Assembly (NCBI GenBank): GCA_015067255.1
Contig: SVMS01000018.1
Coordinates: 1-43,176, forward strand
Source of the DNA: Oscillospiraceae bacterium
GTDB lineage: Bacteria > Bacillota > Clostridia > Oscillospirales > SIG519
Length of the DNA stretch: 43,176 nucleotides
Direction: 5' to 3'
A model generated the notes under the pieces. The model worked only from the letters and a program-made list of their open reading frames with translations. It made no database searches and had not been told where the DNA came from. Both the position numbers and the translations under genes were made by a program. This document shows, one piece after another, positions 445 to 40,883 of this stretch (its first letter is position 1; every line of letters starts with the position of its first letter).

Positions 445-3255
445 ATGAGTATTGTCAAAAATATCAGGCACTTAATCTCTTTTTTGCTGTGTGTTGCGTT
501 GGTAGCAACCCTTATGCCTATGGGTGTATTTACCGTCAGTGCAGGAGATATCGTAGAGTATCATTATACATATACTGTTTCAAACGGTGAGGCAACAATA
601 ACAGGTTGCGACACTTCAATAAGTGGCGATGTTACTATCCCTTCAACCTTAGACGGTTATCCGGTTACAAGCATAGGTGATGAAGCATTTTATTATTGTT
701 ATAGTCTTACAAGGATAACAATTCCCGATAGTGTTACAAGCATAAGTGATAGTGCGTTTTCTTATTGTTTAAGTCTTACAAATATAACTGTAGATTCCAA
801 AAATATTGCATATACTTCGATTGATGGGGTTTTATTTAACAAAAACAAAAGTAAAATAATATGTTATCCGGCAGGAAAAACAGCATCGTCATATGTCATT
901 CCCGACGGTGTTACAAGCATAGGTAATTGTGCATTCTTCTATTGCTCAAACCTTACAAACATAACAATTCCCGATAGTGTTACAAGTATAAACGAATATG
1001 CATTTTATATTTGTTTAAGTCTTACAAATATAACTGTAGATTCTAAAAATATTGCATATACTTCGATTGATGGGGTTTTATTTAACAAAAACAAAAGTAA
1101 AATAATATGTTATCCGGTAGGAAAAACAGCATCGTCATATGTCATTCCCGATGGTGTTACAAGCATAGGCAATTGCGCATTCTTCTATTGCTCAAACCTT
1201 ATGAATATAACAATCCCTGATAGTGTTACAAGTATAAGTTATGGTGCATTTTCTTATTGTTCGAGCCTTACAAGGATAACAATTCCCGACGGTGTTATAA
1301 GCATAGGTGATGAAGCATTTTATAATTGCGCAAGCTTAACAAGTATAGTGATTCCCAATAGCGTTACAAGTATAGGGGATTATGTATTTTATTATTGTTT
1401 AAGTCTTACAAATATAACTGTAGATTCCGAAAATATTGCATATACTTCGATTGATGGGGTTTTATTTAACAAAAACAAAAGTCAAATAATATGCTATCCG
1501 GCAGGAAAAACAGCATCATCATATATAATCCCAAATAGTGTTGCAAGTATAGGAAATGGCGCTTTTGGTGCTTGCTCAAGTATTATAAGTATAACTATTC
1601 CTAATAGTGTTACAAGTATAGGCTCTTTTGCATTTTATAATTGCTCAAATCTCACAAGTATAAACATACCAGACAATGTTACAAGTATAGGTGATTATAC
1701 ATTTTTTTATTGCTCGAACCTTACAAGTATAACAATCCCTAACGGTGTTACAAGTATAGGCGTTTATACATTTGCTTATTGCTCGAGCCTTACAAATGTA
1801 ACAATTCCCGATAGTGTTACAAGTATAAACGAATATGCGTTTTATAATTGCAAGAGTTTAACAAGTATAACAATTCCTAACGGTGTTACAAGTATAGGTA
1901 GTTCTGCATTTGAGTTTTGCTCAAGCCTAAAAAATATAAGTATACCTAATAGTGTTACGAATATAGGCTATTATACATTTGCCTATTGTTCAAGTCTCAC
2001 AAGTATAAAAATCCCTGATGGTGTTACAAGTATAGGCGAGCGTGCGTTTGAGGGTTGCAGGGGCCTTACAACTATAAATATACCAGATAGTGTTACAAGT
2101 ATAGGTGATTATGCATTTTTTCAGTGTTCAAGCCTTATAGGTATAGTGCTTCCCGACGGTATTGCAAGTATAGGTGATGAAGCATTTTGTTATTGTCGTA
2201 GTCTTACAACTATAAATATACCAGATAGTGTTACATATATAGGACATGGAGCTTTTTCTGATTGCAATAGTCTTACAATGATAACAATCCCCAACAGCGT
2301 TAAAAGTATAGGTGATTATGCATTTTATGGTTGTTCGAGTCTTACAAGTATAAACATTCCCGACAGTGTTACAAGCATAGGTTATGGTGCATTTTATGGT
2401 TGTTCGAGCTTTACAAGTATAACCATTCCTGACAGTGTTACAAGTATAGGTGACAGTGCATTTGCTCAGTGCTCAAATCTTATAAATGTAAATATACCTG
2501 ACAGTGTTACAAGCATAGGTGTTTATACATTTGCTTATTGCTCGAGCCTTTCAAGTTTAGTTATTCCCGACAGCGTTACAAGTATAGGCGATGATGCATT
2601 TTATAATTGCGAAAGCTTAACAAGTATAACTATACCCGATAGTGTTACGAGTATAGGTAGTTCTGCATTTGAGTTTTGCTCAAGCCTAAAAAATATAAAT
2701 ATACCAAATAGTGTTACAAGTATAGGTGATAGTGCATTTGCTCGGTGCTCAAGGCTTATAAGTATAACTATTCCCGACAGTGTTACAAGTATGGGCAATT
2801 ATGCATTTTCTAATTGCGCAAGCCTTACAAGTGTAATCATCGGTAACAATGTTACAAGAATAGGTTTGGATGCGTTTTATAATTGTTCAAGCCTTACAAG
2901 CATAACAATTCACGACAGCGTTACATATATAAGTTGGGATGCATTTTACGGTTGTTCAGTTTTGACAGATGTATTTTATTCAGGTACAGAGGAAGAATGG
3001 GCAAATATTTCAATAAATGATGGCAACGATTATTTAACAAATGCCAATATCCATTATAACTACACAGAAAACGAAGCTGTTGAGGGCGACACTAACGGCG
3101 ACGGAGAGATAAATGTTCTTGATGCCATAAGTTTGAGAAACAGCTTATTGGGAAAAGGTACTGACAACGAAAAGGCAGATATGAACGGAGATTCGGTTTT
3201 TGACATTTATGATTTGCTGATATTGAAAGCGATGATTTTTAATAATGTGCCGTAA
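445..3255 (+). CDS. Secreted BspA-type leucine-rich-repeat protein with C-terminal dockerin
   Basis: A 936-residue secreted protein. The start is the ATG at 445, preceded by TTGGAGG with correct spacing; the frame is open further upstream but would run through the terminator hairpin. Residues 1 to about 33 are a signal peptide (cleavage likely after VSA). About 29 repeats of roughly 23 residues follow, with the consensus SLTSITIPDSVTSIGDYAFY, typical of BspA/TpLRR (LRR_5) adhesins. Three repeats carry an inserted NITVDS...GVLFNKN...CYPAGK segment. The C-terminus has two calcium-binding dockerin repeats (GDTNGDGEINVLDAISL and ADMNGDSVFDIYDLL). The protein is probably tethered through its dockerin to a cohesin partner. 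Repeat units are nearly identical in DNA sequence, suggesting recent expansion. The ligand is unknown. Confidence 0.9.
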   Translation: MSIVKNIRHLISFLLCVALVATLMPMGVFTVSAGDIVEYHYTYTVSNGEATITGCDTSISGDVTIPSTLDGYPVTSIGDEAFYYCYSLTRITIPDSVTSISDSAFSYCLSLTNITVDSKNIAYTSIDGVLFNKNKSKIICYPAGKTASSYVIPDGVTSIGNCAFFYCSNLTNITIPDSVTSINEYAFYICLSLTNITVDSKNIAYTSIDGVLFNKNKSKIICYPVGKTASSYVIPDGVTSIGNCAFFYCSNLMNITIPDSVTSISYGAFSYCSSLTRITIPDGVISIGDEAFYNCASLTSIVIPNSVTSIGDYVFYYCLSLTNITVDSENIAYTSIDGVLFNKNKSQIICYPAGKTASSYIIPNSVASIGNGAFGACSSIISITIPNSVTSIGSFAFYNCSNLTSINIPDNVTSIGDYTFFYCSNLTSITIPNGVTSIGVYTFAYCSSLTNVTIPDSVTSINEYAFYNCKSLTSITIPNGVTSIGSSAFEFCSSLKNISIPNSVTNIGYYTFAYCSSLTSIKIPDGVTSIGERAFEGCRGLTTINIPDSVTSIGDYAFFQCSSLIGIVLPDGIASIGDEAFCYCRSLTTINIPDSVTYIGHGAFSDCNSLTMITIPNSVKSIGDYAFYGCSSLTSINIPDSVTSIGYGAFYGCSSFTSITIPDSVTSIGDSAFAQCSNLINVNIPDSVTSIGVYTFAYCSSLSSLVIPDSVTSIGDDAFYNCESLTSITIPDSVTSIGSSAFEFCSSLKNINIPNSVTSIGDSAFARCSRLISITIPDSVTSMGNYAFSNCASLTSVIIGNNVTRIGLDAFYNCSSLTSITIHDSVTYISWDAFYGCSVLTDVFYSGTEEEWANISINDGNDYLTNANIHYNYTENEAVEGDTNGDGEINVLDAISLRNSLLGKGTDNEKADMNGDSVFDIYDLLILKAMIFNNVP

Positions 3256-17538: not shown

Positions 17539-18624
17539 TCAAATCAATTCTGAAATAATGCTGTTGGAAACCCACATACCTTTTTCGGTGAGAATGAGAC
17601 GATTTTTATTGATTTTAGCATATTTATTTTGGATAAGCCTTTTTATAAAGGACTGTTTGGAATTATCAAGCGCCGATATATCTATTCCGTCGCTTGTGCG
17701 CAGTCCTAACATAATATATTCGGATTTGATATCGGTATCTTCAGGGCAAATAATATTTGTACCGTTTATATACTCTTCAAGAGTTGAATTGCAAAAGAAA
17801 CGTTTATTGTCAAAATATGAGTGGGCAGAGGGTCCAAAGCCGATATAAGAGGATAAATTCCAATATTTTTTATTGTGCTGACACTCAAAGCCGTCAAAAC
17901 AAAAATTGGAGATTTCATAGTGCTTAAACTTGAAGTCCTTTAATTTTTGACAGGCAAGACTATACATTTCCCATTCAGCCTCTTCGTCTGCTAAAACAAG
18001 ACTGTCTTTTGCTTCATATAGGGCTGTACCCTTTTCTATTTTAAGGGAATATAGGGAAAGGTGATTGATTTCACATTCAACAGCCTTTTCAACGGAATAT
18101 AAAAGGGAGTCTTTTGTCTGGTTGGGAATGGCAAGCATAAGGTCTGCGCTTATGTTTTCAAAGCCTGCTTTTCTTGCATTTTTTAAAACCTTTTCTGCTT
18201 TAGAGGCATTGTGAATTCTTGACAGCATATTAAGCTCGTTTTCAACAAAGCTTTGAACTCCGAAGCTTATTCTGTTTATCCCTGCTTCTCTGTACATTTC
18301 AAGGTCTTTTTCATCAACTGTTTCGGGATTTGCTTCAAGGGTTATTTCGGCATTTTCAGAAACCTCGGTGCTTTTTTTTATGCTTTTTAAAATATCCTTT
18401 ATGCCTGTCTTTAAAAGGCTGGGAGTACCGCCTCCGAAAAAGATAGTATCAACCTGTGTTTTGGTCTTAAAAAAGCCTTCAATATCCTTTTTTAAGGCAT
18501 CAATATAAAACTCCCTTTTTGATAAATCGCAAAGGGAGTAAAAGCTACAATATGCACATTTTTTGCTGCAAAAGGGTATATGAACGTAAATACCCGTTTT
18601 TGAAGAAGCTTTATAACTAATCAT
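17539..18624 (-). CDS. hemW: Radical SAM heme chaperone HemW
   Basis: A 361-residue protein once annotated as oxygen-independent coproporphyrinogen oxidase; family work assigns it to heme delivery. [19 protein letters not shown] carries the cluster cysteines C19, C23 and C26. [16 protein letters not shown] and RISFGVQS are typical. The C-terminal HemN-like domain is present ([17 protein letters not shown]). HemN itself has a different cysteine arrangement and a longer N-terminus. Its ATG overlaps the end of lepA by 8 bases (ATGATTAG), the usual lepA-hemW arrangement. Confidence 0.94.
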
Positions 18625-20422
18625 CTAACTTAAGAACGGACATAAACGCCTCCTGAGGCACTTCAACAGAGCCTAACTGGCGCATACGTTTCTTTCCTTC
18701 CTTCTGTTTTTCAAGAAGCTTTTTCTTTCTTGTAATGTCACCGCCGTAGCATTTTGCAAGTACGTCCTTACGCATAGCCTTGACAGTTTCACGGGCGATA
18801 ATTTTATTGCCTATTGCCGCCTGTACAGGAATTTCAAAGAGCTGACGAGGAATATTATCCTTTAGCTTTTCGGCAATTCTTCTTCCTCTTGCATAGGCTT
18901 TTTCAGAGTGAACTATAAAGGACAGAGCGTCCACGGCCTCGCCGTTTAACAGTATGTCAAGCTTTACAAGCTGTGATTCCTTGTATTCCGACATCTCGTA
19001 GTCAAAGGAAGCGTAGCCTCTTGTTCTTGATTTTAAAGCGTCAAAAAAGTCGTAAATAATTTCGTTGAGAGGTAAATCGTAATGCAGATTGACTCTGTCA
19101 ACGTCAATATAAGTCATATTTTTGAAAATTCCACGTCTGTCCTGACAAAGCTCCATAATACTGCCAACATATTCGGAAGGGGTGATTATATCAGCTTTTA
19201 CAAAGGGCTCATACGCTTTTTCAATATATACGGGAGAGGGAAAATCAACAGGATTGTAGATAAATTCCTCTTCACCGTTTGTACGTTTTATTTTATATAT
19301 AACGCTGGGAGCAGTAGTTATAAGGTCAAGATTAAACTCTCTTTCAAGACGCTCCTGAATAATTTCCATATGAAGAAGTCCCAAAAAGCCGCAACGGAAA
19401 CCAAAGCCCAAGGCAACAGAGGTTTCAGCTTCAAAGGAAAGGGAAGCATCGTTTAGCTTAAGCTTGTCCAAGGCTTCTCTCAAATCCTCATAATGAGAGC
19501 CGTCAGCAGGATAAATTCCGCAAAATACCATAGGTAAAACAGTTTTATAGCCGGGCAAAGCTTCTTGAGCAGGGTTTTCTACATTTGTTACAGTATCGCC
19601 TACTGCGGTGTCCTTAACGTTTTTAATGCTGGCAGTGAAATAGCCAACCTCACCTGCAGAAAGAACACCTGTAGAAGAAAGTCCCGAGGGCTTCAATACA
19701 CCTGTTTCAACAACTTCAAATTCAGTGCCCTTTGCCATAAAGCGAACAGTATCGCCCTCTTTAAGACAGCCTTCAAAAACTCTGATATATACAATAACGC
19801 CCTTATAGCTGTCATAAAAGCTGTCAAAAACAAGTGCTTTTAGAGGTGCTTCGGGATTTCCTACGGGACAGGGTACAGCTTCGACAATTTTTTCAAGCAC
19901 AGCTTCAATATTTGTACCCATTTTTGCAGAAATAAGAGGAGCATCCTCTGCAGGAATTCCTATAATATCTTCAATTTCCTTGATAACTCGCTGAGGGTCA
20001 GCCGCAGGCAAATCAATTTTATTTATAACAGGGACAATTTCAAGATTATGGTCTATGGCAAGATAAGTATTTGCAAGGGTCTGAGCCTCTATACCCTGTG
20101 CGGCATCTACAACCAATATAGCGCCCTCGCAGGCAGCTAAGGAACGGGAAACCTCGTAGTTAAAGTCCACGTGTCCGGGAGTGTCAATAAGATTGAGAGT
20201 ATATTGCTTGCCGTCTTTAGCGTTGTAGTTTATTTTAACGGCACGTGCTTTTATTGTAATACCTCTTTCTCTTTCCAAATCCATATTGTCCAGAAGCTGT
20301 TCCTCCATATCTCTTTGAGATACAGTTTGGGTAAGCTCTAAAAGACGGTCAGCCAAGGTGGACTTACCGTGGTCTATATGGGCAATTATTGAAAAATTTC
20401 TTATAAGTGATAAATCGGACAT
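18617..20422 (-). CDS. lepA: Elongation factor 4 (LepA)
   Basis: A 601-residue ribosomal GTPase that acts on stalled or back-translocated ribosomes. G motifs: [22 protein letters not shown] and [10 protein letters not shown]. The LepA-specific C-terminus is intact ([54 protein letters not shown]). The length is standard. The ribosome site is GAAAGGA. It is followed by hemW with an 8-base overlap and preceded by hom, 23 bases away. Confidence 0.98.
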
Positions 20423-22715: not shown

Positions 22716-23210
22716 TTACTCATTGTCGGGAAATTTTATGATTTCTCTGCCTTTTTTTATTGCATAATTGAGCGCAATTTTTGTTCCGCTTTTGCGGGTA
22801 ACAGGTGTATTTGCTTCATCATAGTATACAATACAAAACTTACTTTTTTCTATCATTTCATAGTTACGTTCAACATATGTGGCTTTTCCCGAACCGAGAA
22901 TTTTCTCGGGATAATAGGTATCTTCGTAGCTCTCCAAAAGATAATTTCGGTAATCTTCGCTTATGTAAGGAAATTCAGCCCGCACATAAATTCGTTTTAT
23001 GTGCGGGTATTTTTTCTTTATTTCTGTTACCAACTCAACACATAAAGAGTTAAAATTACTCTTACTGCCAAATAAAAATGTATCTACATTCTCCTCATTA
23101 ATCAGTCTTTCAATACTTTCATATAAACCCTTTTTCAATTCTTTCGTTTCATTTATTGTTCTGTTACCAACGAAACAACAGGTATTATCTTGCTCTATTA
23201 TAATATCCAT
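22716..23210 (-). CDS. SLOG-superfamily (DUF1273/YpsA-like) protein
   Basis: A 164-residue protein with a Rossmann-like fold. NTCCFVGNRTI near the start corresponds to the TCCFTGHR motif of DUF1273/YpsA-type SLOG proteins, thought to bind nucleotides or their derivatives. Also consistent are FLFGSKSNFNSLCVELV, AEFPYISEDYRNY, and a C-terminal FCIVYYDE...KSGTKIALNYAIKKG, the usual substrate-pocket end. The molecular role is unknown. It is divergent from an XRE regulator, has a promoter at 23255-23283 and an operator-like palindrome at 23290. Such SLOG genes are common in accessory and phage-related regions. Confidence 0.75.
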   Translation of the reverse strand: MDIIIEQDNTCCFVGNRTINETKELKKGLYESIERLINEENVDTFLFGSKSNFNSLCVELVTEIKKKYPHIKRIYVRAEFPYISEDYRNYLLESYEDTYYPEKILGSGKATYVERNYEMIEKSKFCIVYYDEANTPVTRKSGTKIALNYAIKKGREIIKFPDNE

Positions 23211-23254
23211 AAATTATACCGCCTTTTAATAATACAGTATTTTTAATAGATATT

Positions 23255-23283
23255 ATTATAGAATAAAACAGTTCGATAGTCAA
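23255..23283 (-). promoter_or_regulatory. Promoter of the SLOG gene
   Basis: On the minus strand TTGACT (23283-23278), 17 bases, TATAAT (23260-23255). The -35 box ends 6 bases from the palindrome at 23290-23306. Confidence 0.75.
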
Positions 23284-23289
23284 GTTGTT

Positions 23290-23350
23290 ACCCTTATAAT
23301 AAGGGTATTACATTATTAAATAACAAGTGTATAAACCTTATAATAACGGT
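23290..23350. promoter_or_regulatory. Paired operators of the XRE regulator
   Basis: ACCCTTATAATAAGGGT (23290-23306) is a perfect 17-base palindrome. AACCTTATAATAACGGT (23334-23350) matches it at 15 of 17 positions. Each contains a TATAAT. The first abuts the SLOG promoter and the second lies just upstream of the XRE gene, so the regulator probably controls both. Confidence 0.7.
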
Positions 23351-23376
23351 ATATCATTTAATTATGAGGTGTAATG

Positions 23377-23721
23377 ATGAAAAATAAAGATAAAAACAAT
23401 CTTGCTATAGGGGAAAGAATTAAAGAAATAAGATTAAATAAAAATATAACTCAAGAAATATTGGCAGAAAAAGTGAATTTAGGAAGTGCTCAGCAAATAA
23501 GTGATATAGAAAGAGGCTTGTGCGGTTTATCTGTTGCAAAGCTTATGGAGTTTTGCAAAGCACTTGAAATAGATGCGGATTATTTATTGTTTGGAACGGC
23601 AACAAGAGATATGAAATGTTCTTTAAATAAATATCTTTCAAAAATGACATCCGAACAGTCCCGCTGTGTAGAAGAGCTTGTTTGCGCATATGCAAAATCC
23701 TGTGGGATTGATAAAGACTAA
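23377..23721 (+). CDS. XRE-family helix-turn-helix regulator
   Basis: A 114-residue DNA-binding protein. The HTH is AIGERIKEIRLNKNITQEIL, continuing AEKVNLGSAQQISDIERG, with ALEIDADYLLFG closing the domain at about residue 70. The C-terminal part (KCSLNKYLSKM...CVEELVCAYA) is likely a small dimerisation helix. Two adjacent ATGs follow GAGGTG; the second (23377) has better spacing, the first (23374) adds one Met. It is divergent from the SLOG gene with two matching palindromes between, the layout of an autoregulated repressor. It converges on fic. Confidence 0.88.
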   Translation: MKNKDKNNLAIGERIKEIRLNKNITQEILAEKVNLGSAQQISDIERGLCGLSVAKLMEFCKALEIDADYLLFGTATRDMKCSLNKYLSKMTSEQSRCVEELVCAYAKSCGIDKD

Positions 23722-23742
23722 AATTTTTTGATATAAACAAAA

Positions 23743-23773
23743 AGAGAGAACAAAGCAAAAACTTGTTCTCTCT
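23743..23773. terminator. Bidirectional terminator between the XRE regulator and fic
   Basis: AGAGAGAACAA (23743-23753) pairs perfectly with TTGTTCTCTCT (23763-23773), loop 9. The minus strand continues TTTTTGTTT, so it serves fic best. Confidence 0.75.
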
Positions 23774-23777
23774 TGCA

Positions 23778-24380
23778 TTATAAATCTTCTGTTTTGAAGG
23801 TAGTATAATTTTCGTAATAATAACTGTGGTCAATACCCTTCATAAACACTTCGCGGTCATTCGTTTTATCTGTTAAAGCGTTTTTAAGAATATGTTTTAT
23901 TTCAATATCTTTAACGGGGCTGCGTTCCATAGCGAGTAAATAGTCATCTTTATCCACCAAACTCCAGTCGACAACTTTGCCGATTTCGTTTTTCAATATA
24001 CAATCAAGCCAAATACGCATTGCTCTGCCATTTCCTTCACGAAACGGATGAGCGATATTCATTTCGACGTATTTTTCGACTATTTGTTCAAAAGTAGATT
24101 GAGGCATTTTATCAATATTTTGAAGCGCGACCTCTAAATACATAACAGGAGCAAAACGGAAATTTCCTTTTGCAATATTAACCGTGCGAATTTTGCCTGC
24201 AAAATCATAAATATTTTCAAATAAAGCCTTGTGAATGGCTATAAGGGACGACATTTTGCCCGATTCTAAATTATCAAGAACTCTATTTTCGAACAATTCC
24301 ACCGCTTTCTTCTTGCTGATTTTCTCTTCTTCACGAGCAAGCTCGGCAGAATCTGTTATGCCAAGTTTATTTTCAAGCAT
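23778..24380 (-). CDS. Fic-family AMP-transferase with C-terminal inhibitory motif
   Basis: A 200-residue Fic-fold enzyme; such proteins transfer AMP (or another nucleotide part) from NTP to hydroxyl side chains of target proteins. The catalytic motif HPFREGNGRAMR is canonical, with H111. IYDFAGKIRTVNIAKGNFRFAP is the usual flap region. The C-terminus contains SYYYEN (186-191), which fits the (S/T)xxxE(G/N) inhibitory motif of class III Fic proteins, with E190 expected to block ATP positioning. It is thus probably self-restrained and not paired with a separate antitoxin; none is seen beside it. The ribosome site is GAGGTGA. The target is unknown. Confidence 0.9.
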   Translation of the reverse strand: MLENKLGITDSAELAREEEKISKKKAVELFENRVLDNLESGKMSSLIAIHKALFENIYDFAGKIRTVNIAKGNFRFAPVMYLEVALQNIDKMPQSTFEQIVEKYVEMNIAHPFREGNGRAMRIWLDCILKNEIGKVVDWSLVDKDDYLLAMERSPVKDIEIKHILKNALTDKTNDREVFMKGIDHSYYYENYTTFKTEDL

Positions 24381-31371: not shown

Positions 31372-33195
31372 TCAGTTATTTTTTTTGGTAACGCTGTTTT
31401 TCATTCTAAGTCCGTGGTCAAGTATTCTTTTGCGTATTCTCAAGGATTTGGGAGTAACCTCTAAAAGCTCGTCTGATTCAAGAAATTCCAAGGATTCTTC
31501 AAGACTAAGAATTTGCGGAGGTATAAGTCTTAGTGCGTCGTCGCTTCCTGAGGCTCTTGTGTTGGTAATGTGCTTTTTCTTGCATACGTTTACCGATAGG
31601 TCTGTGCCCTTGGGGTTTGTACCTACAACCATTCCTGCGTAAACATTTACACCTGCACCGATAAACAGACGGCCTCTTTCCTGAGCATTGAAAAGACCGT
31701 AGGTAACACTTTCACCTGTTTCAAAAGCAACCAATGAGCCCAATGAACGAGTGGGAATTTCTCCCGCATAAGGCTGATAGGAATGGAAAACGGAGTTTAT
31801 AATTCCTTCACCTCTTGTATCTGTCATAAATTCACTTCTGTAGCCGAAAAGACCTCTGGCGGGTATTAAAAATTCAAGGCGCACACGGCTTCCCTGAGGA
31901 GTCATATGCTGAAGCTGAGCTTTTCTTAAGCCCATTTTTTCCATAACTGCACCCACTGTACTGTCGGGAACGTCGATAAGAAGCTTTTCTACAGGCTCAC
32001 ACTCAACACCGTCAATGGTTTTATACATAACACGGGGGTTTGATACCTGAAACTCGTAGCCCTCACGGCGCATATTTTCAATAAGAATAGAAAGATGCAT
32101 TTCTCCACGTCCGCAAACTCTGAATGCCTCCGAGGTTTCAGTTTCGGAAACACGTAAGGAAACGTCTTTTAACAGCTCCTTGAAAAGTCTGTCACGCAAA
32201 TGACGGGATGTTACAAATTTCCCCTCTCTTCCCGCAAAAGGACTGTCGTTTACACAAAAAGTCATTTCAACTGTAGGCTCGGAAATTTTAACAAAGCTTA
32301 CTGCTTCGGGGGTTGATACATCGCAGACAGTATCACCGATAGAAATGTTTTCAATGCCGGAAACACATACAATGTCGCCTATCTGAGCTTCGGTAACGGG
32401 AGTTTTTGAAAGAGCATCAAACTGATAAATATTTGAAATTTTACCTCTGAAGCTGCTGTCGGTATGATAGTTTACAACACAAACATCTTGGTTTTGCTTT
32501 ATTTTTCCTCTTTCAATTCTGCCTACGGCAATTCTTCCTACATATTCGTTGTAGTCGATAGAGGAAACAAGCATTTGCAAAGGACCGTTTTCGTCACCCT
32601 CGGGAGCATCAAAATAGTTGACAATCATATCTAAAAGAGGAAGCAGGTCGCCTTCAGAAACGTCGGGAGAAAGGGAAGCGACTCCTTTTCTTGCCGAAGC
32701 GTATACAATGGGGCTGTCAAGCTGAGAGTCTGTAGCTTCCAAATCCATAAGAAGCTCAAGAACTTCGTCTCCAACCTCTTTAAGACGGGCGTCGGGACGG
32801 TCAATTTTATTTATTACAATAATAACCTTGTGGCCCATTTCAAGAGCCTTTTGCAAAACGAAACGGGTTTGAGGCATAGGACCTTCAAAGGCATCAACCA
32901 AAAGCAAAACTCCGTTTACCATTTTTAAAACACGTTCAACCTCGCCGCCGAAATCTGCGTGTCCGGGAGTGTCGATAACGTTGATTTTCATATCCTTGTA
33001 ATGTATCGCTGTGTTTTTTGCAAGGATAGTTATTCCACGCTCACGCTCAATGTCGTTACTGTCCATAACTCTGTCAGCCACAACCTGATTTTCTCTGAAA
33101 ACGCCCGCTTGCTTGAGCATTTCGTCTACAAGGGTTGTTTTACCGTGGTCAACGTGAGCAATAATTGCTATATTTCTAAGGTCTGTTCTAATCAA
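31372..33195 (-). CDS. typA: Ribosome-associated GTPase TypA/BipA
   Basis: A 607-residue translational GTPase implicated in 50S assembly and stress adaptation. [32 protein letters not shown] and NKIDRPDAR are the G motifs. The BipA-specific C-terminus is seen in [23 protein letters not shown] and RRLI-like [13 protein letters not shown]. The start is TTG at 33195 with AAAGGAG upstream; the next ATG in frame is far inside. It lies between the cohesin-like gene and the dehydratase, all on the minus strand. Confidence 0.97.
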
Positions 33196-39201: not shown

Positions 39202-39230
39202 AGTATACATTATTTTTTTAAAAAAATCAA
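39202..39230 (-). promoter_or_regulatory. Promoter of the radical SAM-plsX operon
   Basis: On the minus strand TTGATT (39230-39225), 17 bases, TATACT (39207-39202). Transcription would start about 115 bases before the ATG at 39079. The leader includes a GAGCAAA/TTTGCTC hairpin near 39096-39111. Confidence 0.6.
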
Positions 39231-39302
39231 GAGTGCATATTATTGCATATTTAACAGTTTTTCATATTTTCAAATACAATTTCAAAGAAAGGAATAAAAA
39301 AT

Positions 39303-40826
39303 ATGTCAAGAAAAAATTTCACAGAGGATTGGAAGCTTTACGAAAAGGGAAAAGAATACAATTCTCAAATAGGCTATAAAAGTGCCTGCGATAAAAATGA
39401 AAGATTTTACGCAGGCGACCAATGGTACGGAGTGAAGGCGGGGAATTTGCCCACACCTGTATTTAATATGTTTAAAAGAATAACGGACTATATAGTTTCA
39501 TATATTCTTTCATCTCCGTTAAAAATCAACTATTGCTCGGACAATGCAGATGCGGCGCTTTTGCTTAATAAATATGCCGCAACAAAATGGGAAAAGATGA
39601 AAATGGACTCAATGATGAGAGATTTACTTCTCGATGCCGCACTTTCGGGAGATATGGCAACACATACCTATTGGGACCCTACTCTTAATATAGGTAACGG
39701 CGTATACGGTGATTTTGTTACCGAAGCGGTGGACGGTATAAACGTGTTTTTCGGAAACGTAAACGACCGCCACGTACAAAAACAGCCTTACATAATTCTT
39801 GCAGGCAGAGCTATGACAGAGGACCTGAGAAAAGAGGCTATGCTTTACGGAATGAGCAAAAAGCAAGCGCAGGAAATTGTTTCTGACAACGATTGCTCTG
39901 ACCAAATGGGTGATTTTTCAAGCATTGAATTAGACGGAAAAAGTACCTTTTTAATTAAATATTATAAGGGCGATAACGGTAAAATATATTTTACCAAATC
40001 GACTAAAACCGTTGTAATAAGAGATAATATAGACACAGGACTGAGCAGATATCCCATATCCTTTGCAAACTATACCAAGCGTAAAAATTGCTATCACGGT
40101 GAAGCGTTGGGCACAGGTCTTGCTCCGAACCAGATTTTTATCAATAAAATATTTGCTATGGCTATGAAGCATTTAATGGATACGGCTTTCCCCAAGGCTA
40201 TATACGATAAAACTAAATTGTCTGCGTGGAATAATGCAGTGGGAAGTGCCGTTGGTGTTACGGGAGAAATAGACGGAGTTGCAAAATATCTTGAGCCTGC
40301 AGGAATGAACGGTAGTGTTATAACACTCATAGATAAAGCAATTCAGTATACTCAGGAAAATATGGGCGCTACTGACATTCTTTTGGGTCAGAATGTTAGA
40401 CCCGATAACGCTTCTGCTATTATTTCCTTACAGCAAAGCTCAGCAATTCCTCTTGACGGAATAAAACAGGAGCTCTATTCCTTCGTAGAGGATATAGCTC
40501 TTATCTGGCTTGACTTTATTTTAAATAAATATTCTGTTGAACGTACAGTGCCTATTGTCAACGATTCATTTATTGATTTTGCAAAAATAACACCTCAGAG
40601 TATAAGAAATTTTGAATACACAGCTACGGTAGACGTAGGTCCAAGCACATATTGGAGTGAAATCAATGCCGTTAAAACTTTGGATAGTCTGCTTCAGAAT
40701 GGGCATATTGATACAGTACAATATCTTAAACGTTTGCCCTCGGGCTATATTCCCAAAATCAATGAGCTTATTTCCGAGCTTGAAGCGGTTGCTCTTGAAC
40801 AACCAATTGAACAAGCCGATAGCTAA
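39303..40826 (+). CDS. Phage portal-like protein, with no other phage genes around
   Basis: A 507-residue protein resembling tailed-phage portal proteins, which form the dodecameric ring through which DNA enters the capsid. The N-terminus (NERFYAGDQWYGV, LPTPVFNMFKRITDYIVSYI) matches this group. The middle contains FANYTKRKNCYHGEALGTGLAP and NKIFAMAMKHLMDTAFPK, and ENMGATDILLGQNVRPDNASA is the usual wing/stem region. The frame is intact and full length, with AAAGAAAGGA before the ATG. The neighbours are radical SAM-plsX and transketolase, with no terminase, scaffold or capsid gene. It may be a prophage relic or a host-adopted gene. Base composition matches its surroundings. Confidence 0.82.
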   Translation: MSRKNFTEDWKLYEKGKEYNSQIGYKSACDKNERFYAGDQWYGVKAGNLPTPVFNMFKRITDYIVSYILSSPLKINYCSDNADAALLLNKYAATKWEKMKMDSMMRDLLLDAALSGDMATHTYWDPTLNIGNGVYGDFVTEAVDGINVFFGNVNDRHVQKQPYIILAGRAMTEDLRKEAMLYGMSKKQAQEIVSDNDCSDQMGDFSSIELDGKSTFLIKYYKGDNGKIYFTKSTKTVVIRDNIDTGLSRYPISFANYTKRKNCYHGEALGTGLAPNQIFINKIFAMAMKHLMDTAFPKAIYDKTKLSAWNNAVGSAVGVTGEIDGVAKYLEPAGMNGSVITLIDKAIQYTQENMGATDILLGQNVRPDNASAIISLQQSSAIPLDGIKQELYSFVEDIALIWLDFILNKYSVERTVPIVNDSFIDFAKITPQSIRNFEYTATVDVGPSTYWSEINAVKTLDSLLQNGHIDTVQYLKRLPSGYIPKINELISELEAVALEQPIEQADS

Positions 40827-40849: not shown

Positions 40850-40883
40850 GAAAGGGTGCAGTCCTTACGGATTGCACCCTTTC
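40850..40883. terminator. Terminator between the portal gene and transketolase
   Basis: GAAAGGGTGCAGTCC (40850-40864) pairs with GGATTGCACCCTTTC (40869-40883, one G-U pair), loop TTAC. On the minus strand it is followed by TTTTTTT, so it mainly terminates the transketolase operon. Confidence 0.85.

Follow-up and report, generated by a model that had tools for sequence, protein, structure and literature searches.

An intact portal gene stands alone among core genes

The DNA analysed here (the window, 43,176 nt) is an entire contig, C18, of a draft genome of an Oscillospiraceae bacterium, and it carries, with only 2.35 kb remaining to its right, a gene for a phage portal protein flanked by plsX and a radical SAM gene on one side and by the genes of two transketolase subunits on the other (Table 1). 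An earlier sequence-only reading had described an intact portal frame with its own ribosome site, standing alone amid core genes, and both points held. The frame is complete and preceded by a ribosome-binding site, its product matched PHROG 156 'portal protein' over residues 18-467 (E 3.2e-36), and the match to Pfam P22_portal (E 1.3e-13) exceeds the curated cut-off. A fold search of the PDB with the AlphaFold model of the protein, which is of moderate confidence only (pLDDT 71, pTM 0.66), placed the podovirus portals of SU10, Pan3 and P22 at the top (best E 1.2e-16); searching the PDB by sequence with the same protein gave no portal among the matches. The gene is single copy in its genome, and the HMM scan of the window for head-module genes returned the portal as the sole match.

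A promoter-like site lies upstream of the gene, and such sites are not more frequent in the window region than in shuffled sequences. The strong hairpin downstream of the stop codon is probably a two-way terminator, serving the portal gene and the convergent transketolase genes. Elsewhere in the window, an AT-rich patch (~30% GC) holds a 164-aa ORF together with two genes named by eye, one for an XRE-type regulator and one for a Fic-like protein.

Table 1. Positions and properties of the features described in the text (loci other than the window are given by contig or locus handle).
Feature	Contig or locus	Position	Strand	Properties
hemW and lepA	window	17539..20422	-	no head module beside the pair
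AT-rich patch	window	22716-24380		
typA	window	31372-33195		
Shared upstream element	window	39219..39262	+	common to portal and C43 scaffold-capsid operon; direct repeat, 10-bp period
Element core, 14-mer TGCATATTATTGCA	window	39234-39247		exact match twice only in 1.84 Mb genome
Promoter-like site TTAACA-18-TACAAT	window	39251..39280	+	consensus match 10/12; directly 3' of the element core
Ribosome-binding site AAAGGA	window	39288..39293	+	9 nt 5' of portal ATG; read from sequence
Portal protein CDS	window	39303..40826	+	507 aa, ATG start, podovirus (P22-like) type
15-bp hairpin	window	40850..40883	+	3' of portal stop; -27.6 kcal/mol, z -8.5, 0/200 shuffles
Small terminase (TerS), gp3-type	C13			114 aa; Pfam GP3_package E 1.9e-12
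Scaffold	C43			188 aa; operon, by gene calling
Capsid	C43			287 aa; same operon
Head-completion	C43			192 aa; same operon
Hub	C43			580 aa; same operon
Collar fibre	C43			155 aa; same operon
Coiled coil	C43			180 aa; same operon
Partial oxidoreductase copy	C2 (L213)	877-1712		
Lone portal and resolvase-like gene, G086	L039	7269-7886		
Second locus, G086	L066	4042-8408		
TerS-TerL, G056	L064	3121-6743		
TerS-TerL, G015	L065	4815-8446		
f16 box before RepO-like, DnaD-like and DUF4417/nuclease genes	L227	546-1448		
As above	L230	1823-2680		
As above	L221	1756-2472		
As above	L242	781-1428		

The terminase and capsid genes lie on two other contigs of the same genome

The genome is a draft of 54 contigs and 1.84 Mb (97.6% complete, 0.46% contamination), and it was searched for the large terminase (TerL), the capsid protein and the tail hub with the proteins of relatives as queries. 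TerL was found on contig C13 (E 9e-178), the major capsid protein on contig C43 (E 3e-119) and, adjoining the capsid gene, a tail-hub-like protein (E 4e-99); a stop flagged within the hub match falls outside the hub gene frame. On C43, which is only 12 kb long and stops 0.6 kb past the capsid operon, the six genes from scaffold to coiled coil (Table 1) have the rnf operon on one side and an oxidoreductase gene on the other, with a strong hairpin at the operon end. A disrupted partial copy of this oxidoreductase was seen by eye on contig C2. On C13, TerL is parted from TerS by one opposite-strand sulfatase-domain gene; in the family f24, the homologue of this TerS lies directly 5' of TerL. Pfam matches above the cut-off support the names capsid, collar, TerL and TerS; the scaffold, head-completion, hub and coiled-coil genes were named from their position, weak PHROG matches and homology among relatives. 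The TerL protein keeps GGAAGGGKS and VIRFDEVT, which we take to be its Walker A and Walker B motifs. Of 70 invariant positions, it keeps 68, with V to I and A to S changes at the other two.

All of these parts are open frames amid housekeeping genes, and they occupy three distant loci: TerS and TerL on C13, the portal on C18 and the scaffold-capsid operon on C43, not the single TerS-TerL-portal-scaffold-capsid operon of f24 and f19 relatives. The label 'orphan', which the portal had been given from the window alone, is therefore wrong, since the search for distant terminase and capsid genes proposed along with it brought up both, intact, elsewhere in the same genome. At none of the three loci was there a contiguous cluster with integration and replication genes, the anatomy of a prophage, and neither of the two lysis-gene types searched for in this genome, those of the relatives G086 and G015 described below, was found. 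An assembly break in a nearby prophage had been named as a finding that would refute the sequence-only reading, and a direct joining of the portal, terminase and capsid pieces is excluded by their flanks, because the capsid operon adjoins rnf genes at one end and a terminator with a housekeeping gene at the other, and TerL lies well inside the 47-kb contig C13.

A direct-repeat element links the portal to the scaffold-capsid operon

The two genomic copies of the 14-mer TGCATATTATTGCA precede the portal gene and the scaffold-capsid operon, whose upstream regions align over a gapped stretch of ~45 bp (local alignment score 43 versus a shuffle mean of 23.5, 0/500). This alignment test was partly post hoc, as the repeat had first been spotted by eye in the upstream regions, and the stronger support for the shared element is the genome-wide count of the 14-mer together with the finding in the f16 genomes described below. 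A first k-mer comparison with mismatches among the four upstream regions of this genome was little or no better than shuffles. The region upstream of TerS matched that of the portal weakly, being equalled by 6/300 or 50/500 shuffles depending on the length used; upstream of TerL, local comparison found no shared element. Four further sites in the genome differ from the 14-mer by one mismatch, and none lies at a recognised phage gene. In f24, the sister of the family of the present genome, two TerS upstream regions share TTGCA-N5-TTGCA, with the same half-site and spacing as the element found here.

Another box, TGTCATTRWATGTCA, is common to the dispersed units of three relatives, G086, G056 and G015. 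Scanning 28 genomes with it gave 29 sites, and the reversed control gave 1; 28 of these 29 sites lie within f16 genomes, where the exact box is present in 9/22 and absent from 13/22. At 18 sites, a match to an HMM, Pfam or PHROG gave a name to the first or second downstream gene, namely portal (6), TerS-TerL (3), scaffold-capsid (1), fibre (4), RepO (2), DnaD-like (1) and DUF4417/nuclease (1); at six, the downstream gene had no firm phage match and encodes a protein of fibre-like, repeat or small membrane type, and at the remaining five no close downstream gene was called. The positions of the boxes before RepO-like, DnaD-like and DUF4417/nuclease genes are given in Table 1. The box of the present genome and that of f16 are both 5-bp direct repeats with 10-bp spacing; several f16 boxes have three repeats, and the boxes finish near a TATAAT-like hexamer. 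By their form and position, the repeat boxes look like putative activator sites, and the phage replication genes in f16 would appear to be kept under the same control as the head genes.

Compact modules and dispersed sets in relatives

The portal was searched for across 98 genomes, and TerL, capsid and hub across 96. As a single query the portal gave no match in the genome-contig or viral-contig collections, whereas an alignment query did match; neither genome collection held a close relative of the present genome. Ten genomes carry the closest portals (the present one, G015, G018, G023, G040, G043, G056, G072, G075 and G086), and a close TerL and a close capsid gene are present in 10/10. The layout differs among families: in f24 and f19 the head set is one operon of ~8 kb, in f16 the terminase pair is located apart from the other head genes, and in G086, which belongs to another family than the present genome, the terminase, the portal and the capsid operon are on three contigs, as they are here.

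The genome-contig loci examined were the best 80 of 124 portal relatives, and 42 of these 80 had at least 6 kb on either side of the portal. Among the 42, a capsid gene was found at 41, a hub gene at 40 and a TerL gene at 29, and one locus (L113) has a lone portal. Homologues confined to full prophages would have spoken against the sequence-only reading; most of the closest ones lie in compact 8-kb modules, and the more distant ones in prophage-like regions (L202, L208 and L209, judged by eye) and in ~40-kb phage contigs. Of the proteins flanking 22 compact modules, 125 were picked and two very long ones left out; among the remaining 123 the commonest families were holin (9), GtrA-like (6) and gp3 TerS (4), with translation GTPases including LepA, and HemW, also among the commonest, and no integrase family with at least three matches appeared among the 25 commonest families shown. 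At 12 of the best 80 of 124 loci, the compact module lies directly or a few kb downstream of lepA-hemW, and the lepA-hemW pair of the window, which does not belong to the present-day system, is possibly an emptied ancestral module site.

Several neighbourhoods were noted in passing. The typA gene lies at most ~7 kb from the portal in the window, and likewise in both f24 genomes, in different order and orientation. At a second locus of G086, fibre, lysozyme-like, holin-like and small-terminase genes, named by eye, stand just before TerL, a gene content resembling that of locus II of FpGTA (a Faecalibacterium system described below), and the lone portal of that genome adjoins a serine-resolvase-like gene, also named by eye, a possible relocation agent. 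In G056 and G015, two species of one genus, TerS-TerL stands beside the same genes (transaldolase-like, ispE-like and plsY-like, by eye) and the portal loci differ.

The head set is inherited vertically and under purifying selection in relatives

The portal is present as a single copy in 20/22 genomes and 8/8 genera of f16. In f19 it was found in 41/63 genomes (one of the 41 being a fragment and one in two pieces) and 8/13 genera, and its presence is nearly all-or-none by genus (5/5, 7/7 and 4/4 versus 0/5, 0/4 and 0/4), the largest genus having it in 18/24. Order-wide, some portal relative occurs in 134/394 genomes, and a gap from 699 to 613 bits parts f1, f16, f19 and f24 from the rest, fragmentary matches aside. 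In a portal tree of 62 rows built by a quick search, from which L185 with its portal frame in two pieces was left out, the chromosomal portals of f1 and f24, f19, f16 and f20 form one clade of 30 rows (support 98); of 14 viral rows, 13 fall outside this clade, and the one inside is L166, a 13-kb contig with a compact module. The portal, TerL and capsid of the present genome each branch with f24 (supports 100, 100 and 100). In the hub tree the present genome is not grouped with f24, and in the capsid tree the f19 capsid proteins are closer to one phage group; because of these two placements, parts have probably been exchanged with phages in the past.

Selection was measured in relatives, as the family of the present genome is represented by one genome, and the species pairs used were the 18 closest of 46 candidates (17 for the hub). 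The dN/dS values were 0.043-0.099 for the portal, 0.040-0.097 for TerL and 0.011-0.080 for the capsid (18 close species pairs each), and 0.061-0.343 for the hub (17 pairs). The sequence-only reading had proposed looking for selection on the gene in relatives, and the portal is indeed kept, with dN/dS of 0.04-0.10 in the 18 pairs. These results demonstrated that the portal is under strong purifying selection across close species of the relatives, and that in these the head set is inherited vertically under purifying selection.

Viral relatives and known systems

The nearest viral portals, at 43-48% identity, are those of ~40-kb IMG/VR podovirus contigs (L151, L157, L159, L165 and L186), in which TerL, portal, scaffold and capsid follow in the same order as in the chromosomal sets, with extra genes nearby (RepO, DnaB and an integrase in L165, a primase in L159). 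The chromosomal proteins have a median length of 521 aa versus 599 in the viral contigs for the portal, 175 versus 272 for the scaffold, 131 versus 306 for the head-completion protein and 275 versus 279 for the capsid. In INPHARED, a homologous portal occurs in the Bacillus phages of the Page/Palmer group, 32-33% identical across 92-93% of the query; their records are of ~40-kb phages, not gene transfer agents (GTAs).

Chromosomal particles of phage origin are known from other bacteria. The alphaproteobacterial GTAs (RcGTA, CcGTA and BaGTA) have phage-derived head genes at several chromosomal loci, are inherited vertically under purifying selection, descend from a siphovirus-like ancestor and are switched on by host-encoded activators (GafA or GafYZ); BaGTA is coupled to a phage-derived replication origin. 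The set described here resembles them in its dispersed head genes, vertical inheritance and purifying selection (the last two measured in relatives) and differs in its podovirus ancestor with a P22 portal and in its iteron-like repeats. The replication-origin coupling of BaGTA is brought to mind by the RepO genes that belong to the f16 box set. PBSX of Bacillus subtilis, with a contractile tail and one contiguous gene cluster, kills and is not known to inject DNA. The likeness to PBSX, which is also named in the FpGTA paper (PMC12946183), lies in a chromosomal phage-derived particle packing host DNA, as the present set would probably also form; the differences are that the genes found here are dispersed, unlike the contiguous PBSX cluster, and of podovirus type.

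The nearest known counterpart is FpGTA of Faecalibacterium prausnitzii, published in January 2026 (Borodovich et al., PMC12946183). According to that paper, its main operon of 10.5 kb encodes TerS, TerL, portal, scaffold, capsid and others, a second operon of 5.5 kb encodes fibre and lysis proteins, and the particles measure 40 nm and hold ~9 kb of DNA; its authors term it the first podovirus-like GTA-like element, in a single genus, and mention GTA-like packaging also in Oscillospiraceae and Christensenellaceae (PMC12946183). Compared by this description, and with the present set judged from its genes alone, the two systems share a Gram-positive gut bacterium as host, a podovirus-like type, and terminases, portal, scaffold and capsid; as described there, FpGTA likewise has a main operon without replication genes and further parts at a second locus. 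Unlike FpGTA, whose main genes are described in one operon, the present genome has the capsid operon, portal and terminases at three loci with TerS and TerL parted, a shared direct-repeat box links its units, and the hosts belong to other bacterial families. FpGTA-like operons were found in f12 (L198 and L201), as distant homologues of the present set; their capsid protein is 350 aa long, and their portal branches separately from that of the present genome. Our guess is that the f12 genomes are kin of Faecalibacterium. A limited search of the GTA literature found no other such system in clostridia besides FpGTA.

A dispersed head-and-packaging system, probably a GTA

The sequence-only reading had raised two possibilities, a domesticated portal or part of a dispersed capsid-derived system, and the distant terminase and capsid loci, the shared upstream element and the purifying selection in relatives support the second. 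Judging from genes and genomes, we think there is a good chance that the portal belongs to a domesticated podovirus system for head assembly and packaging whose units are dispersed, and which is most likely a GTA; on the best reading the set would be of a kind related to FpGTA, split further and linked by the shared box. To our knowledge, GTAs are without phage replication-initiator genes, and the f16 box before such genes counts against the GTA reading. So do the lack of a shared element before TerL, the weak match between the TerS and portal upstream regions, the two lysis-gene types searched for and not found, the placements in the hub and capsid trees, and the 13/22 f16 genomes without an exact box.

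As a GTA, the system could work as follows. A host-controlled activator would bind the upstream repeats under some host signal and switch the dispersed units on together; scaffold and capsid protein would build a small prohead on the portal ring; and the terminase would fill it headful-wise with whatever chromosomal DNA it met, since none of the units belongs to a separate replicon. Lysis would then free the particles, which would carry host DNA to kin in kilobase pieces. From the trees and the layout in relatives, we infer that temperate podoviruses of ~40 kb gave rise to one 8-kb operon, which would have been split in the lineage of the present genome, the parts being kept by selection. A wider version, which we put forward tentatively and would rather doubt than assert, is that of an old podovirus-derived GTA across several families of one gut-clostridia order, dismantled into host genes at unrelated sites that make up a regulon tied together by iteron-like repeats spaced one helical turn, in which a RepO-type initiator (f16) may serve as activator or as pre-packaging amplifier of host DNA.

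The same anatomy would be expected if domesticated particles were formed and set free without transferring genes, either as PBSX-like killers or for a benefit that comes from lysis or DNA release. A collar-fibre gene is present, and the FpGTA paper leaves such a particle open for Faecalibacterium (PMC12946183), but both terminase subunits are kept, TerL with its motifs and nearly all of its invariant positions, and TerL, which is not obviously needed for killing alone, is under strong purifying selection in relatives; we regard this explanation as unlikely. A prophage that rearrangement had scattered and that no longer functions would also leave parts at separate loci, and similar portals do lie in prophage-like regions of some relatives. 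Every part in the present genome is an open frame, though, a similar three-way split recurs in G086 from another family, the portal is near-universal and single copy in f16 and under purifying selection in relatives, and the portal shares its upstream element with the scaffold-capsid operon, so that we consider decay distinctly improbable. Still less credible is a capsid- or portal-based device of defence or parasitism, such as a decoy portal or a satellite borrowing the parts of a helper phage: the portal is a separate transcription unit here and also alone in G086, but the genome also encodes the full set of head and packaging proteins, of which portal, TerL and capsid have a common history, and no integrase family is prominent in the flanks of the 22 modules. 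An assembly artefact or viral-contig contamination can be set aside despite the fragmented draft and the short capsid contig, as each part has bacterial housekeeping genes around it on its contig, the genome is nearly complete with little contamination, and dispersal is seen again in other genomes.

We know of very few GTAs outside the Alphaproteobacteria, and the comparable set described here occurs in nearly all genomes of one family (20/22) and frequently in another (41/63), single copy and conserved. The dispersed set illustrates a prophage turned into scattered host genes, and with its split architecture and shared box, the repeat offers a sequence handle by which the regulator and every member of the system could be traced. 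If the GTA reading is true, DNA exchange of the GTA type would be a standing trait of several gut-bacterial families known mostly from metagenomes.
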